Shown in pieces: positions 15,848 to 21,489 of a DNA stretch of 64,000 nucleotides. The position numbers and the translations under genes were made by a program. How positions within the stretch are numbered: the first letter of the stretch is position 1; each line of letters opens with the position of its first letter. The DNA is from Amycolatopsis mongoliensis (GTDB lineage Bacteria > Actinomycetota > Actinomycetes > Mycobacteriales > Pseudonocardiaceae). Under the pieces are notes generated by a model. The model was given only the letters and a program-made list of their open reading frames with translations, was not told where the DNA came from and made no database searches. The stretch covers positions 9,858,001 through 9,922,000 of the forward strand of contig NZ_CP127295.1 of NCBI RefSeq assembly GCF_030285665.1, read 5' to 3'.

Positions 15848-16534
15848 GTGTGCACGGTGAACATCGTGGAGACCTACACCGGGCACGTCGACCCGGGCGG
15901 CGACGCCACCCGGCGGACCCTGGACGCGCTGACCATCACCAAGCTGTCCGTCGGCCCGATGGACAACAACACGTACCTGCTGGTGTGCCGGGAGTCGAAC
16001 GAGGCGCTGCTGATCGACGCGGCGAACGACCCCGAGCGCATTTCGGACCTGATCGGCCACGGCCCGGACCGCCCGGCGCTGCGCACGGTGGTGACCACCC
16101 ACCAGCACCAGGACCACTGGCAGGCGCTCGGCGCGGTCGCGGGGGCGAACGGGGCCAACACGGCGGCCCACCCCCTGGACGCCTCGCCGTTGCCGGTGCC
16201 GCCGGACTTCCTCGTCGAGGACGGGGACACGCTGTCGGTGGGGCAGGTCACGCTGTCGGTGATCCACCTGAGGGGGCACACGCCCGGGTCGATCGCACTC
16301 CTGTACCGCGACCCGTCGGGGCATCCGCACCTGTTCACCGGGGATTCGCTGTTCCCGGGCGGAGTGGGGCGGACCACGTCGCCCGAGGACTTCGCGCAGC
16401 TCCTGGACGACGTCGAGGCGCGGATCTTCGACGAGCTGCCGGACGACACGTGGTTCTACCCGGGCCACGGGGACGACTCCACGCTGGGCGCGGAGCGGCC
16501 GAAGCTGAAGGAGTGGCGCGAGCGCGGCTGGTGA
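15848..16534 (+). CDS. Metallo-beta-lactamase-fold hydrolase (glyoxalase II-like)
   Basis: This 228-residue soluble metallohydrolase has the binuclear metal signature HxHxDH in TTHQHQDHWQAL (about residues 79-90), the second histidine in HLRGHTPGSIAL, the bridging Asp in FTGDSLFPGG and a last His in FYPGHGDDS. The overall layout is that of glyoxalase II-like MBL proteins. A homologue sits next to uvrA in mycobacteria, which supports conserved synteny. I use the GTG at 15848 because GGAGCG precedes it at 11 bases; the GTG at 15857 is also possible. Physiological substrate unknown, probably a thioester. Confidence 0.88.
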   Translation: MCTVNIVETYTGHVDPGGDATRRTLDALTITKLSVGPMDNNTYLLVCRESNEALLIDAANDPERISDLIGHGPDRPALRTVVTTHQHQDHWQALGAVAGANGANTAAHPLDASPLPVPPDFLVEDGDTLSVGQVTLSVIHLRGHTPGSIALLYRDPSGHPHLFTGDSLFPGGVGRTTSPEDFAQLLDDVEARIFDELPDDTWFYPGHGDDSTLGAERPKLKEWRERGW

Positions 16535-16544
16535 ATTTCCTCCG

Positions 16545-16579
16545 AGCGGGGCGGCCAATGGTTTTCGGGCGGCCCCGCT
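16545..16579 (+). terminator. Hairpin terminator after the MBL gene
   Basis: AGCGGGGC (16545-16552) pairs with GCCCCGCT (16572-16579) and is followed by TTGTATTT. It lies ten bases past the MBL stop and before the end of the convergent DUF1684 gene. Confidence 0.7.
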
Positions 16580-16627
16580 TTGTATTTCCCGCGCCGCCGC
16601 TCGACGCCGACGAGCCCGCTGGAAGGG

Positions 16628-17410
16628 TCACCCGCGCTCGTACGGGATCTTCTCCCCCGCCTCGACCGGGAACGGCAGGTGGTTGCCCGCCGGCGGCAGC
16701 GGGCACGTCGCGAAGTCGGTGAACGCGCACGGCAGGTTGACCGCCCGGTTGAAGTCCAGCGTCACCGAACCGTCGGACGCAGGCGCACCGACCGGCAGCG
16801 AGCGGTTCGCCGCGTACGTCGTCACCCCGCTCGTCTCATCCGTGAACAGGATGCTCAACCCGCCGTCCTTGCCGTTGAACGCGGTCAGCGTGTGCGACTC
16901 TCCGCCGAAGGAGAAGTGCACCAGACCCGGCGCCGTGTAGACGTGGCTGAGGCCCTCCACGACGGCACCGACCGTCGTGGGCCGCGGTGAGTCGAACGGC
17001 TCGAAGCGGCCCGGCACCACCCAGGACGGCGACGGCTCGTACGCCGGGACGCCGTGGAACTCGCGCAGCACCTCGGCCTTCGGGTCGTGCACGCGGATCA
17101 GGTACCCCGAACGGCGGGCGACCTCGATCTCGACGTCGCCGGCCAGCACGCGCGTGCCCGCGCCGCTGTTGACCAGCTCGAACCGGCGGGTCTCGGTGAT
17201 CGGGGCGCCCTCGTGCACGAGTGTCGCGCCCGCCGGGTCGACGTACGCCGCGTCGGCGTCCTGCCACCAGCGGCCGGGGATGCCCGGGTACTCCCGCGGG
17301 GTGTCCGTCAGCCAGTCGAGCGACACCAGCGCCAGCCAGCCGTGGGGTGCCGCGAGGTCCTCCTCACGGCGCGTCTTCCAGTCCTGCCACTCGCTCGTGA
17401 ACGTGCTCAT
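16628..17410 (-). CDS. DUF1684 family protein
   Basis: This 260-residue soluble protein of the DUF1684 family has hallmarks WQDWKTRREEDLAAPHGWLA at the N-terminus, a central FGGESHTLTAFNGKDGG, and the C-terminal TLDFNRAVNLPCAFTDFATC then PLPPAGNHLPF. The two cysteines near the end are conserved in the family as I recall it. Function is unknown; the fold is all beta. The ATG at 17410 has GAGAAGGGG upstream. It follows the cyclase-like gene at 17431 by 20 bp on the same strand, so it may be the distal gene of that operon, although the family is widespread elsewhere. Confidence 0.85.
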   Translation of the reverse strand: MSTFTSEWQDWKTRREEDLAAPHGWLALVSLDWLTDTPREYPGIPGRWWQDADAAYVDPAGATLVHEGAPITETRRFELVNSGAGTRVLAGDVEIEVARRSGYLIRVHDPKAEVLREFHGVPAYEPSPSWVVPGRFEPFDSPRPTTVGAVVEGLSHVYTAPGLVHFSFGGESHTLTAFNGKDGGLSILFTDETSGVTTYAANRSLPVGAPASDGSVTLDFNRAVNLPCAFTDFATCPLPPAGNHLPFPVEAGEKIPYERG

Positions 17411-17430
17411 CGCGGGCCCCTTCTCCTCGG

Positions 17431-18036
17431 CTACGACGGTGCCAACCCGTCGCCGGAGCCGGTATTCCGCGTCCCAGTATCCGGACCGGTCCGCAGCCAC
17501 GCGATTTCACGCTCGCCCCCGGCGTGAACCACCACCCGCCGGAACTCCGGCGCGTCGCCGATCGCCGCGTGGAACCGGTCGGAGACGATCAGCAGCTGAT
17601 CGCGCTCCGGCTCCGCGGCCATCGCCGCCTTCAGCACCTCCGCCTCGCACAGCCAGACCGCCAGCGCGATCGCGGCGCCGCCGAAGTTCGGCCGGCGCAG
17701 CACCACGTCGCCGTGGTCGGCGGCGAGCCTCAGGCGCAGCCTGCCGAACTCGTTGAGGTGACGGTTGCGGCGCCGCAGCGCCCCGGCCAGCTCGTCGGCG
17801 AAGTCCGTCGCGACCCACCGCCGCGGCACGGACGGCGGGATGACCAGCGTCGTGTTGTCCCCCTCCGGCCGGCGGTACCAGGTCGGTGTCCGGTACGGCA
17901 CCGGGACGTGGTCGAACACCTCGTCCAGCACCCCGTCGAGGATGGTGCCGAGGTGCACCGCGCGGGCGGTGCCGCCGCGGCTCGGGGCGACGATCCCGAT
18001 CCGGACGACGGTCGCAGCCACCGGCACGGTGCGCAT
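17431..18036 (-). CDS. Degenerate nucleotidyl-cyclase-like protein
   Basis: This 201-residue protein resembles, by recalled pattern, small actinobacterial class III nucleotidyl-cyclase-fold proteins. Recognisable segments are the strand pair around YRRPEGDNTTLVIPPSVP (residues about 54-71), the helix ELAGALRRRNRH, the strand GRLRLRLAADHGDV, and the end segment DQLLIVSDRFHAAIGDAPEF. In active enzymes the first strand carries a metal-binding Asp and the second has GDG. Here the first strand reads VVRIGIVAPSRGG without the Asp, and the second reads GDN, so catalysis is doubtful. It starts four bases after the stop of the 18041-19006 gene, so the two are co-transcribed. A binding, scaffold or sensing role is inferred. 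The family match rests on memory of the pattern, not a search. Confidence 0.6.
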   Translation of the reverse strand: MRTVPVAATVVRIGIVAPSRGGTARAVHLGTILDGVLDEVFDHVPVPYRTPTWYRRPEGDNTTLVIPPSVPRRWVATDFADELAGALRRRNRHLNEFGRLRLRLAADHGDVVLRRPNFGGAAIALAVWLCEAEVLKAAMAAEPERDQLLIVSDRFHAAIGDAPEFRRVVVHAGGEREIAWLRTGPDTGTRNTGSGDGLAPS

Positions 18037-18040
18037 GGCC

Positions 18041-19006
18041 TCAGTCCCCCCGGGGCTCGAAGGACCACTGCAAGCCGTAGCTCAGCCCCTGGTGCAGCTC
18101 GTGGAACTCGAACCCCACCTCGCCGACCCGGTTGACCGACAGCGCGTCGCCCGAGTCGACGCCGTCGTCGACCACCCGGCCCGGCACGCCGTTGAGCCGC
18201 CACACGCGCGGCGGCGGGTTCGCGCGGTCGAACCGGACTCGCACCGAGAGCCGCTCGCAGCGGCGCAACGGCGTCATGACGTAGTACGGCCGCAGCGACG
18301 TGCGCCGCGGCGCGAAGCGGACCCCGTATTCGTGCCGCTGGCCGAGCCGCAACGGGCTGGGGAGCCGCATGACGAACTGCGCGTGGCTCACCGAAACCTG
18401 GCGCGCTTCGACGATCTCGCCGCCGAACAGGGCGTCGGCGGTGATGTCCGGCACCGGGTCGCTGCCCGGCTCGGCCGGCACGCTGAAGGAGAGCACGAGC
18501 TCGTCGAGCTCGTCGACCTCCGCGACGATCCGGCGTTCCTCCTCCAGGTCCGGCGGATCGCGGTCGAGGTGCAGCGTCGCCTTCATCGACTCGACGTACC
18601 AGCCGGCCAGCGGGTGCAGGTCGCGCTCCGGCGGGGGCGTCACGAGCAGCTCGTCGAGCCGGCGGAACGCCAGGTCGATCCGGCGGCGCGCGGTGCGCGG
18701 GTCCCGGTCCAGGACGCTGGCCAGCCACGAGATCCGCCGGTCGAGGAACTCCCCCGCGGCCTCTTCGTGCAGGCCGAACGCCGCGAGCGCGGCCAGCCGG
18801 AGGTCGTCCGGCAGCCGTCCGCACAGCTCGGTGAGCCGCAGCACGAGCTTCCGCCGGGCCTCGGCCGGCCGGTCGGCGTCGGTGATGTCGCACACCTCGC
18901 GCAGGAACGGGCCGATCCGCTGGTGCAGGTCGGCCGCGTCGAGCCCGCGGCCGCGGCGCAGTTCGTTCAGCTCGCGCACGAACGGGAAGGAGTTCTCCGG
19001 CCGCAT
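18041..19006 (-). CDS. Two-domain actinobacterial protein: helical module plus beta-rich domain
   Basis: This 321-residue protein has no enzymatic motif that I can find. Residues 5-130 are helical, with IGPFLREVCDITDADRP, RLPDDLRLAALAAFGLH and WLASVLDRDPRTARRRIDLA. I recall this module as an N-terminal unit in many uncharacterised actinobacterial proteins with variable C-termini. Residues 145-321 are beta-rich (ATLHLDRDPPDLEEERRIV, HEYGVRFAPRRTSLRPYYV, PPRVWRLNGVPGRVVDD). The ATG at 19006 has GGAAGGGG upstream, and a minus-strand TAATGT about 50 bases before it may be the -10. It is the first gene of the unit with the cyclase-like gene. Function unknown; the pairing suggests a regulator or effector that needs the cyclase-like partner. 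Confidence 0.7.
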   Translation of the reverse strand: MRPENSFPFVRELNELRRGRGLDAADLHQRIGPFLREVCDITDADRPAEARRKLVLRLTELCGRLPDDLRLAALAAFGLHEEAAGEFLDRRISWLASVLDRDPRTARRRIDLAFRRLDELLVTPPPERDLHPLAGWYVESMKATLHLDRDPPDLEEERRIVAEVDELDELVLSFSVPAEPGSDPVPDITADALFGGEIVEARQVSVSHAQFVMRLPSPLRLGQRHEYGVRFAPRRTSLRPYYVMTPLRRCERLSVRVRFDRANPPPRVWRLNGVPGRVVDDGVDSGDALSVNRVGEVGFEFHELHQGLSYGLQWSFEPRGD

Positions 19007-19107
19007 CCCACCCCTTCCCGGTGCCGCGGTGAAATGACAGCCCACATTACCAAGAAAGGTTCCGTGCCGGGCGTGACAGATCGCGGACACTCGCATTCAC
19101 GGAAATA

Positions 19108-19144
19108 CCCGGCCGGCCGGCCCCCCACGAGCCGGCCGGCCGGG
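19108..19144 (-). terminator. Hairpin terminator after the micro-ORFs
   Basis: A perfect 14-bp stem (19108-19121 with 19131-19144) with a 9-base loop is followed on the minus strand by GGGTATTTCC. It separates the two very small ORFs from the gene starting at 19006. Confidence 0.75.
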
Positions 19145-19154
19145 CTGCTGCGGA

Positions 19155-19199
19155 TCAGTTCGCGCCGAGGATCAGCGCCCAGATCAAGTGGCTCTCCAT
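19155..19199 (-). CDS. Possible 14-residue peptide
   Basis: An ATG at 19199 opens a 14-codon frame encoding MESHLIWALILGAN. A strong ribosome site, GAGGAGG, lies six bases upstream and overlaps the stop codon of the preceding 55-codon ORF (TGAGGAGG). This layout is typical of translational coupling. The peptide is hydrophobic and too short for a domain. It could be a leader, a membrane micropeptide or chance. The longer 77-codon frame running through it uses an upstream start with poor coding character and I do not favour it. Confidence 0.35.
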   Translation of the reverse strand: MESHLIWALILGAN

Positions 19200-19210
19200 C
19201 GCACACCTCC

Positions 19211-19378
19211 TCATCGCTGCACCCAGGCCGGGTCGGAGAAAGTGGCGGAGCCGTGCAACGCCGGCGCGGCCGGTTCCGCTGCGTTTCCGGTGGCCGCCAG
19301 GAATCCCGCGACGGTACCGACCACGAACGCGACGAAGACCGATTTCACCAGGGTCAAGATCTTGCAGTAGACGTTCAC
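19211..19378 (-). CDS. Small secreted or single-pass membrane peptide (55 residues)
   Basis: A GTG at 19378, with GGGGAG nine bases upstream, opens a 55-codon frame. Residues 1-12 (VNVYCKILTLVK) are followed by a hydrophobic stretch SVFVAFVVGTVAGFLAATGN, then a signal-peptidase-like site near NAA-EPA and a short tail ending in FSDPAWVQR. It reads as a type I signal peptide with a 20-residue mature peptide, or as one TM helix. It lies 112 bp downstream of the Crp-family gene on the same strand. It is short enough for automated callers to miss. Function unknown; a secreted signal or membrane accessory of this locus is inferred. Confidence 0.6.
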   Translation of the reverse strand: MNVYCKILTLVKSVFVAFVVGTVAGFLAATGNAAEPAAPALHGSATFSDPAWVQR

Positions 19379-19490
19379 GGCAAAGCACTCCCCGACCTCG
19401 CTCGAAATGGAATCCGGCCGGTTGGCATCTGATTTCTTTTCCGGCCGGAACCAGGATCGCGCCGGGGCGGCTCCGCTCAGAGGCCCGCTG

Positions 19491-20198
19491 TCACGGGCGT
19501 TGTGTGCCGTTTGGCTCAGAGCGGGCGAAGGCGCGCAGGACCCGCGGCTCGCGGATGAGGATCCGGCGGCGGCCGGTCTCGACGATCCCCCGCTCCCGCA
19601 GGACGTGCAACGCCCGGGCGACGGTACGCCGGGCCGCTCCGATCTGCGACGCGATGTCCTCCTGCGACATCGCGCCCTCGATGAGCACGCCTTCCGGAAC
19701 GCGCCGGCCGTGCTCCTCCGCCAGCCGGACCAGGACCACCGCGACCCGGCGGCTGACGTCGAAGGCCGCGGAGTCGACCCGGGCCGACTCCGCGTTGCGG
19801 AGCCGGGCCGCGACCGTCTTGATCGTCGCGATGGCGATCTCGGGCCGGGTGTGCAGGACGTCGACGAACTCCGCGCCGGTCAGCTGGTAGACGGTGCAGG
19901 GTTCGATCGCGCGCACCGACGCCGACCGCGGCCGCCCGGTCACGGCGGCGAGATCGCCGAGCACCTCGCCGGGGCCGCGCAGGCCGAAGAGCACCTCGCG
20001 GCCGTCCTCGACGATCGTGGAGACGCGCACCCAGCCGGCGACCAGCACGTGGACGTGGTCGGACGGGTCGCCCTCCATGAGCACGACGTCGTTCGCGCGA
20101 AACCGCCGGCGGGTGCCGCGGGCGAGCAGGTACTCGCGATCGGTGTCGGCGAGATAGGCCAGGAGCGCGCCCTCGCCCGTGTCGTCGTGCCCGCTCAT
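19491..20198 (-). CDS. Crp/Fnr-family regulator with intact-looking cyclic-nucleotide pocket
   Basis: This 235-residue transcription regulator has a cyclic-nucleotide-binding beta-roll at residues 10-120. Its phosphate-binding cassette reads GEVLGDLAAVTGRPRSASVR. It keeps the Arg that binds the cyclic phosphate in CRP (RSA) but has GD where CRP has GE. A dimerisation helix follows. The winged helix at about 170-220 is GAMSQEDIASQIGAARRTVA and HVLRERGIVETG. There is no Fnr-type Cys cluster. The ATG at 20198 is chosen for GGAGGGG just upstream. It is the first of a minus-strand series leading to the small ORFs and the cyclase-like gene, and is divergent from rnhA. Confidence 0.88.
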   Translation of the reverse strand: MSGHDDTGEGALLAYLADTDREYLLARGTRRRFRANDVVLMEGDPSDHVHVLVAGWVRVSTIVEDGREVLFGLRGPGEVLGDLAAVTGRPRSASVRAIEPCTVYQLTGAEFVDVLHTRPEIAIATIKTVAARLRNAESARVDSAAFDVSRRVAVVLVRLAEEHGRRVPEGVLIEGAMSQEDIASQIGAARRTVARALHVLRERGIVETGRRRILIREPRVLRAFARSEPNGTQRP

Positions 20199-20272
20199 GG
20201 CTCCCCTCCGGATCTCCACCGTAACCCGGCGTGGCGGGCCGGGGCGAGCGCCGGGACCGGTAGGGTCGCCGC

Positions 20273-20734
20273 GTGGACGTGGAGATCTACACCGACGGCG
20301 CGTGCAGCGGGAACCCGGGACCGGGCGGCTGGGGCGCGGTCCTCCGGTACGGGCGGCACGAGCGCGAGCTCTACGGCGGCGAAGCCACCCCGACGACGAA
20401 CAACCGGATGGAGCTGACGGCGCCGATCCGGGCGCTGGAGAGCCTGACCCGGCCGTCGCAGGTCCGCGTATACACCGACAGCACGTACGTGCGCAACGGG
20501 ATCACGCAGTGGCTGCCGCGCTGGAAGAGCAACGGCTGGCTGACGGCGGCGCGCGAACCGGTGAAGAACGCGGACCTGTGGCAGCGCCTGGACGCCGCGG
20601 TCGGCGAGCACGAGGTCGAGTGGCTGTGGGTCAAGGGCCACGCGGGGCACCCGGAGAACGAGCGCGCGGACCGGCTCGCGGTGCGCGGGGCCCAGGAGGC
20701 GCGGGAGATCGGGAAGCCGGTCAACGCGGGTTAG
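20273..20734 (+). CDS. rnhA: Ribonuclease HI
   Basis: This 153-residue endonuclease cleaves the RNA strand of RNA:DNA hybrids. The four acidic catalytic residues are visible: D8 in [15 protein letters not shown]47 in NNRMEL, D69 in YTDSTYV and D133 in ERADRL, with the flexible-loop H123 ([11 protein letters not shown]). Length is normal for the bacterial enzyme without an extra domain. The start is a GTG at 20273; a second GTG two codons on is equally possible. It stands alone, divergent from the Crp-family gene. Confidence 0.95.
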
Positions 20735-20841
20735 TCCGAAGTGGACGGACGCTGCGCCGTTCGGGCGATCGGCGTTCCCGCCGCCGGGTTTCCGGTGCAG
20801 GATCGGACCCTTCCGGACCGGGGAGGGAACGGGATCTCGCC

Positions 20842-21489
20842 ATGGTGCGCACGGTCGACGGCAAGCCGAAGCCGTTCGGGGAGGACAAACCGCCGAAGGG
20901 GCGGGCAGCTCTGCTGGCGGCAGCCGTGGTCGGCGCCGCCGCCGCGGGCGGCACCGCGCTGAGCGGCGGCGCGGCTTCGATCGAGTCCGGCGGGGGATCG
21001 AGTCTGCAGGCGCGGAACGCCGGCAAGGAGTCGGCGCGCAAGGGCAAGCACGAAGACGCGATGAAGCGCCTCGGCCTCAAGACGCTGAAGAAGATCGCGA
21101 AACGCGAACTGAAGTGCGCCCCGTATGCGTTCGGGCAGGTCCGGCAGTTCTTCTTGCGCCATCCGTGCAAGGCGCTCTCGCGGATGCTGCTGGCCGTCGG
21201 AGACGGTGCCGGAAACACTGTCGTCGTCACGATCGCGTGGGTCCGGATGCCGAAAGCCGCCGAGGCTCGCGACCTGCGGGACCTGGCCGACCGGGATGGG
21301 AGCGGGAACATCTACGCCCTGCCTGACGCGCTGCTGAAGCGGGCGGGCGTGCGGTTCACCGGCGAGCACTACGAGTCGCGCCTCGACGGCTCCCTCCTGG
21401 TGATCGCCGAGGCGGCCGGCGGCGGCCACCCGGATCCGGCGGTCCTCGACGCCGCGGCCGACGTCGCGGCGGCGTTTCCCGCGCCCTGA
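20842..21489 (+). CDS. Uncharacterised protein with N-terminal Ala/Gly-rich hydrophobic stretch
   Basis: This is a 215-residue protein I do not recognise. Residues 1-23 are polar and basic (KPFGEDKPPKGR). An Ala/Gly-rich hydrophobic segment (ALLAAAVVGAAAAGGTAL) follows, perhaps a membrane or export signal. A Lys-rich helical part (KKIAKRELKCAPYAFG) leads to a beta-alpha domain around LLAVGDGAGNTVVVTIAWV and the C-terminal HYESRLDGSLLVIAEA. Two cysteines lie about 17 residues apart. I take the ATG at 20842 because upstream codons in the same frame are not protein-like. GGGAGG lies about 17 bases upstream, further than ideal. It has coding-like third-position bias. Confidence 0.6.
   Translation: MVRTVDGKPKPFGEDKPPKGRAALLAAAVVGAAAAGGTALSGGAASIESGGGSSLQARNAGKESARKGKHEDAMKRLGLKTLKKIAKRELKCAPYAFGQVRQFFLRHPCKALSRMLLAVGDGAGNTVVVTIAWVRMPKAAEARDLRDLADRDGSGNIYALPDALLKRAGVRFTGEHYESRLDGSLLVIAEAAGGGHPDPAVLDAAADVAAAFPAP

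Follow-up and report, generated by a model that had tools for sequence, protein, structure and literature searches.

Organisation of the locus

A stretch of 64,000 nucleotides from Amycolatopsis mongoliensis (positions 9858001-9922000 of a 10.8 Mb genome), referred to here as the window, was analysed for a minus-strand cassette in which a Crp/Fnr regulator is followed by two micropeptide genes, a two-domain protein and a cyclase-fold protein. Among named organisms, Amycolatopsis has the nearest relatives of the window's proteins. The cassette probably functions as a unit of signalling or defence, one not described so far. An earlier sequence-only reading had proposed five minus-strand elements in a set order, and all five were found where it had placed them; from position 20198 downward the order is CRP, TM, MESH, a hairpin, HB and CYC, and among the cassette elements only CRP was matched by Pfam, NCBIfam and PADLOC. 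The features are as follows.

19491..20198, minus strand: CRP, Crp/Fnr regulator (P0004) with a cyclic nucleoside monophosphate (cNMP)-binding domain and a Crp-type helix-turn-helix (HTH)
19411..19450, minus strand: inverted repeat lying between the CRP gene and the TM open reading frame (ORF), its arms of the CCGGCCGG type, from an Amycolatopsis alignment by eye
19211..19378, minus strand: TM micropeptide, 55 residues, GTG start, single hydrophobic helix
19155..19199, minus strand: MESH micropeptide, 14 residues, MESHLIWALILGAN, from recurrence and the ratio of nonsynonymous to synonymous variation (pN/pS)
19107..19145, minus strand: GC-rich hairpin 3' of MESH that lacks a T-run and is probably an intrinsic terminator, from folding energy
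18041..19006, minus strand: HB, helical N-domain (about 8-122) and beta-sandwich C-domain (about 130-317)
17431..18036, minus strand: CYC, protein of the class III cyclase fold whose catalytic site is degenerate in Amycolatopsis

Recurrence and gene order across genera

A neighbourhood search recovered the gene set in other actinobacteria; with the window included, 37 loci were tabulated. Profiles of HB gave 32 loci from named contigs, with matches in 21 of 394 genomes of the class and 125 of 297 genomes of the family, and profiles of CRP matched 30 of the 394 at 1e-45 and 41 of the 297 at 1e-55. The tabulated loci were selected for carrying an M[EQ]SH micro-ORF in the vicinity of CRP or HB, and only the other tabulated features are informative. 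They comprise 15 Amycolatopsis loci including the window, eight of group g2 (Actinokineospora where a named contig matches), four of g145 (Lentzea where a named contig matches), three of g168, five of g156, one of g167 and one of Pseudonocardia lacus; further Amycolatopsis loci (L200, L204-L207) were kept out as possible repeats, and MESH is present there too. A same-strand CRP adjoins MESH at 34 of the 37 loci, HB lies within 4 kb at 36, TM directly precedes MESH at 24, and CYC was found within 6.5 kb at no fewer than 21, a lower bound since flank lengths differ. The proposed five-gene set is corrected to a constant CRP-TM-MESH plus HB, and CYC, at 21 of 37 loci, is variable.

The order CRP-TM-MESH-HB is seen in Amycolatopsis, g2 and the first Lentzea loci, save that TM is absent from six Amycolatopsis loci and CRP from G510. 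In g168 the order is HB-CRP-TM-MESH at two of three loci, and at the third MESH faces HB. All five g156 loci have CRP and then MESH followed, directly or past CYC, by a convergent gene for a SMODS-associated NUDIX protein (Sa_NUDIX, PF18167, E 3.4e-34 to 5.8e-10). In P. lacus (L024) a CHAT peptidase gene (3.4e-18) occupies the place of CRP. TM, MESH, HB and CYC come next, then an NTPase that matches nSTAND3 weakly, and genes for CATRA (3.5e-50) and CATASP (6.8e-25) adjoin the set. CYC lies upstream of CRP at three Lentzea loci, and in L020 and L022 the two are separated by a Band 7 protein and by an NTPase whose AAA/nSTAND3 matches are weak.

The linkage of MESH to CRP is confined to one part of the CRP family. 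Among the 26 best-scoring CRP loci, 23 carry MESH, one carries MQSH and two (L157, L209) carry neither; MESH, there of 26 residues, also accompanies another Lentzea CRP (L214, 261 bits), which was fetched afterwards. In a tree of 59 CRP rows, all 24 M[EQ]SH-linked CRPs fall into a single 29-row clade (support 100/99), the other five rows being the CRP-CYC pairs L210-L212, which lack MESH, and L157 and L209, which have neither. The CRP-CYC pairs of f21 genomes branch outside this clade.

Cyclase genes are frequent companions of these regulators. A same-strand CYC follows CRP at 13 of 34 CRP loci (L158, L159, L160, L163, L165, L166, L177, L181, L182, L183 and L210-L212), and at seven of ten in f21 genomes, and arrays of CRP-CYC or CRP-CRP-CYC occur at seven of the nine loci L215-L223 (all save L217 and L219). 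In the host genome a CYC match lies no more than 1.6 kb from each of the three CRP matches at E <=1e-45, although the 10.8 Mb hold just 10 listed CYC matches. The Pycsar effector PycTM stands directly behind related CRPs in L219 (3052-3612, 3.9e-15) and L216 (3188-3730, 8.3e-15), and in L224 (2469-5181) a class III cyclase (PF00211, 8.9e-26) of 683 residues, which contains a GAF domain, has its start overlapped by a related CRP; the two are likely a pair working through cyclic AMP (cAMP) or cyclic GMP (cGMP). The CRPs of L216, L219 and L224 come from the same profile search and lie outside the 59-row tree.

The TM and MESH micropeptides

The 14-codon ORF at 19155-19199 was confirmed and is conserved across genera. 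Within genera MESH shows pS 0.337 and pN 0.086, a ratio of 0.25 over 136 pairs, while the two shifted frames yield 0.95 and 1.51. The loci fetched up to L213 amount to 2,687,796 strand-bases with the window left out; in them M[EQ]SH micro-ORFs of 9-24 residues with a ribosome-binding site gave 86 matches representing 32 distinct peptides, and all of them adjoin a cassette CRP or HB. Chance matches (L228, L235) do occur among loci that were fetched later because of the DNA pattern. MESH is present at 15 of 15 Amycolatopsis loci, where its ribosome-binding site is conserved in a 15-sequence alignment, and ranges from 10 to 26 residues in length. Judged by its sequence, the MESH ORF is beyond chance, since several genera share it and selection acts on its protein sequence.

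TM has 55 residues in the window and about 23-39 in other genera, and the ten aligned rows share a basic residue, one hydrophobic helix and, in most, F-x-x-G-x-x-x-G. Its pN/pS is 0.21 in Actinokineospora (21 pairs) and 0.56 in Amycolatopsis (45 pairs). On this sequence evidence both micropeptides appear to be real. They look like membrane micropeptides, in keeping with half of the earlier description "membrane or secreted", and nothing shows secretion. ORFs of the size of MESH are skipped by gene callers, and we know of few conserved bacterial protein families that are shorter.

DNA patterns for MESH were also followed beyond the tabulated loci. The pattern GAGGN{4,9}ATGGARAGYCAY occurred at nine places in eight of 200 genomes of the order, a sample with 29 genomes from this family or genus; six places are not cassettes, and the three that are lie in G000, G532 (one of its two places) and G510. 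A broader pattern matched 76 of 297 family genomes: none of the 10 METH/MESH places read outside cassettes encodes a similar hydrophobic micropeptide, and of seven further places only L214 has CRP with MESH.

A third conserved micro-ORF, mostly of 7-12 codons with a METE start and a GGAG-type ribosome-binding site, was seen by eye upstream of CRP in L186-L192 (g2, Actinokineospora-type), and one METE-type micro-ORF is also among the ORFs of L021.

The CRP regulator, CYC and HB

CRP matches PF00027 (1.4e-23) and PF13545 (4.5e-15) and, with a cNMP-binding domain and a Crp-type HTH, belongs to the Crp/Fnr factors. Among solved structures its nearest relatives are Crp/Fnr proteins of mycobacteria (3.8e-36), E. 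coli CRP ranking lower, and its pN/pS of about 0.25 indicates purifying selection. Of the features of the cAMP-binding subset, the alignment shows the phosphate Arg retained as previously claimed (R91 in PRSASV) and the ribose Glu replaced by Asp82. Glu137 lies at the base-contact position, where by eye the 11 aligned CRPs have Glu in six, Asp in two and Gln, Gly and Ser in one each. It was placed by gap-free alignment to M. tuberculosis CRP, whose residue we take to be equivalent to E. coli S128. Glu at the S128-equivalent position reads guanine in XC_0249, as described in PMC11224242, and cGMP is therefore a candidate ligand of CRP.

The cyclase fold of CYC, put forward in the sequence-only reading, is borne out by a Ma1120 profile match (1.3e-7), an AlphaFold2 (AF2) model with a pLDDT of 85.7 and class III cyclases as top matches in both Foldseek and VIA-align, and CYC is accordingly a member of the class III cyclase fold. 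The first metal Asp is indeed missing, Gly14 standing in its place. GDN is present for GDG as had been read, and it is no defect in itself since the second metal Asp (D60) is kept. Two further losses had gone unremarked, namely Trp128 at the Arg position and Ala124 at the Asn position. Among 19 Amycolatopsis-type rows (alignment A3), Gly14 and Trp128 occur in all 19, Ala124 in 18 with Val in one, and Asp60 is kept in 18. An active class III cyclase has two metal Asp and the transition-state Asn and Arg; Amycolatopsis CYC lacks the first Asp, Asn and Arg, and the claim of catalytic degeneracy stands for this genus. The CYCs of L158, L159, L160, L163, L165 and L166 retain D, GD, Asn and Arg. The window CYC gave no PF00211 match and no match in PADLOC up to E = 1, and eight CYC relatives gave no PycC match. 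The C-termini of CYC in L020, L022 and L023 carry tails such as GNVIQAGRIGKIDARN, which presumably resemble the RHIM/BASS amyloid signalling motifs.

HB is the two-domain protein that had been read at 18041-19006, with a helical N-domain and a beta-sandwich C-domain, and its pN/pS of about 0.25 likewise indicates purifying selection. The best Pfam match of the N-domain had E 0.029, in one of 12 rows; VIA-align rows for HB cover only residues 130-318, so a known fold for the N-domain is still possible. A large multidomain form with the HB N-domain was found in none of four genomes searched, where the open frames span 162-511 residues. Many HB relatives have no adjacent CRP or MESH, including most lower-scoring HB loci and four paralogues in the host genome, none of which has a CRP labelled beside it.

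Hairpins and transcript units

The hairpin 3' of MESH folds at -43.8 kcal/mol (z -4.34) and is near-invariant in 15 Amycolatopsis loci. A strong hairpin follows MESH in most of the 24 loci folded, its sequence being unrelated between genera. We read this hairpin as the end of the CRP transcript and, because it follows MESH, the cassette genes are probably carried on two transcripts. A promoter and terminator consensus scan gave no matches, its terminator model requiring a T-run, and an Rfam scan of 16500-21000 also gave none, which leaves room for an RNA absent from Rfam. Both arms of the inverted repeat at 19411-19450 are recognisable by eye in the 15-sequence Amycolatopsis alignment. The CCGGCCGG-type-armed hairpins at 19411-19450 and 19107-19145 bracket both micro-ORFs across Amycolatopsis and could pair mutually.

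Proposed mechanism and alternative explanations

We tentatively interpret the cassette as a cyclic-nucleotide-gated membrane micropeptide module, a reading that is quite possible and short of an even chance. CRP would bind a cyclic mononucleotide and set the transcription of its own operon, the end products of which would be TM and MESH, very small hydrophobic peptides entering the cytoplasmic membrane; HB would act together with these peptides and probably binds either them or some other partner. In genera related to Amycolatopsis the CYC-family cyclases adjoining CRP may supply the ligand. In Amycolatopsis CYC would be a pseudo-cyclase, at most binding a nucleotide, with its gene being lost, and therefore the ligand would have to come from another cyclase. 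That a cyclic nucleotide switches membrane peptides is suggested by the family of CRP, the neighbours of its relatives and the chemistry of the peptides.

Several observations weigh against this interpretation. TM was not found at 13 of the 37 loci, among them six of 15 Amycolatopsis and all five g156 loci; three loci (G510, G539 and P. lacus) have no adjacent CRP, and G423 has MQSH instead of MESH with neither HB nor CYC nearby. None of the 31 lower-scoring CRP loci has MESH (L185, with no CRP gene called, was dropped), and no CYC stands behind CRP at 21 of 34 CRP loci. CYC itself is degenerate in Amycolatopsis and was not seen at 16 of the 37 loci. The Asp at the ribose-Glu position (D82) is shared by 10 of 11 aligned CRPs, and alignment and a palindrome search gave no convincing CRP operator. 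Between MESH and HB a strong hairpin is lacking at L194 and L196 (Lentzea), and several STAND- or AAA-like neighbour matches fall below the Pfam cut-off. The chromosomal place is fixed at 15 of 15 Amycolatopsis loci, with RNase HI upstream and DUF1684 downstream, which looks more like a vertically inherited cassette than like a mobile defence island.

This fixed place also favours a housekeeping role, somewhat unlikely on balance, in which two small membrane subunits under the control of a cAMP- or cGMP-responsive Crp protein adjust a transporter or envelope complex, HB being envelope-related or chaperone-like, and no conflict is involved. Purifying selection on CRP, HB and MESH (pN/pS about 0.25) agrees with it, and L209 indicates that such CRPs can adjoin small membrane subunits: at 2324-2589 of this locus (G510) a same-clade CRP is followed by a TM ORF of 27-33 residues and then KdpF (PF09604, 1.2e-9). 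Against it stand the patchy distribution in the family, with the CRP profile at 1e-55 in 41 of 297 genomes, and the conflict-system-type neighbours in several genera, where the cassette or related CRPs adjoin CYC, PycTM, CHAT/CATRA/CATASP, Sa_NUDIX and NTPases that match STAND/AAA weakly.

The same neighbours (PycTM, CHAT, CATRA, Sa_NUDIX and the weak STAND/AAA matches) are what points to a protective output. It is doubtful, though conceivable, that TM and MESH serve as executioner micro-effectors in a transcription-based defence not described so far, in which a cyclic nucleotide made upon infection, by CYC in relatives and by another cyclase in Amycolatopsis, would switch CRP towards membrane-damaging peptides of 10-55 residues in place of a PycTM-type protein, with HB as restraint or partner.

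Secreted or exported pheromone-like signals read by CRP or HB are improbable. Very short conserved hydrophobic peptides do adjoin a regulator, and a polar tail follows the helix in the Amycolatopsis TM ORF; no recurring exporter or modifying enzyme was seen among the partly annotated neighbours, however, a peptidase (CHAT) occurs at one locus only (P. lacus), and the conserved part of MESH is its N-terminus and not its C-terminus.

More improbable still are attenuator leader peptides whose translation controls HB expression. The CCGGCCGG-type-armed hairpins before TM and after MESH in Amycolatopsis, the succession of MESH and HB in several genera and the weak folding between them in L194 and L196 would suit such a role, but the hairpin lies past the MESH stop with a sequence unrelated between genera, and the MESH peptide sequence itself is conserved. 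As the main explanation it was rejected, with MESH last in two g168 loci and a convergent gene after MESH in g156. Chance neighbours with spurious small ORFs are scarcely credible, the four HB paralogues without a labelled CRP notwithstanding, given the recurrence at 37 loci, the clade-restricted linkage and the protein-level selection.

Comparison with known systems and significance

The gated micropeptide module that we favour resembles Pycsar in its class III cyclase-fold partner, its CRP-type cyclic-nucleotide-binding domain and its predicted membrane output, and PycTM immediately follows related CRPs in both L219 and L216. It differs in that CYC matches no PADLOC PycC model and here has lost its first metal Asp, that a transcription factor would act as receptor and that micropeptides are the predicted output; a Pfam scan of eight sequences from the locus and its flanks found no PycTM or PycTIR, PycTM being seen only beside related CRPs. 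CYC shares fold and profile similarity with Ma1120-type class III adenylyl/guanylyl cyclases, but in Amycolatopsis the first Asp, Asn and Arg are gone and PF00211 is unmatched. The TM-MESH-HB-CYC set of P. lacus adjoins CHAT, CATRA and CATASP genes, and no match to CATRA-N, CATRA-C or CATASP was found among the window proteins scanned with Pfam. Type I toxins of the Ibs and TisB class, which are paired with antisense RNA antitoxins, are like the cassette peptides in size and hydrophobicity; the cassette peptides differ in their link to a Crp regulator and in the conserved MESH start, and toxicity is hypothetical here.

Actinobacterial cyclase-type domains, some of them inactive, are described among NTP-dependent conflict systems by Kaur et al. 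2020 (PMC7159879). That paper also ties CRP-like factors to peptide-processing systems, which is a likeness to our cassette, but the precursors there are of the FxSxx-COOH type with metallopeptidase and radical-SAM genes, and the passages considered hold no mention of the MESH or TM micropeptides or of HB. A description of the cassette was not found in open-licence papers.

Overall, MESH, at 10-26 residues, would rank among the shortest conserved bacterial protein families, and it accompanies one clade of CRPs, relatives of which stand beside cyclases and Pycsar effectors. MESH provides a marker for locating further such cassettes, and the cassette makes it possible to test how cyclic-nucleotide signalling, transcription and membrane micropeptides may be linked in multicellular actinobacteria.

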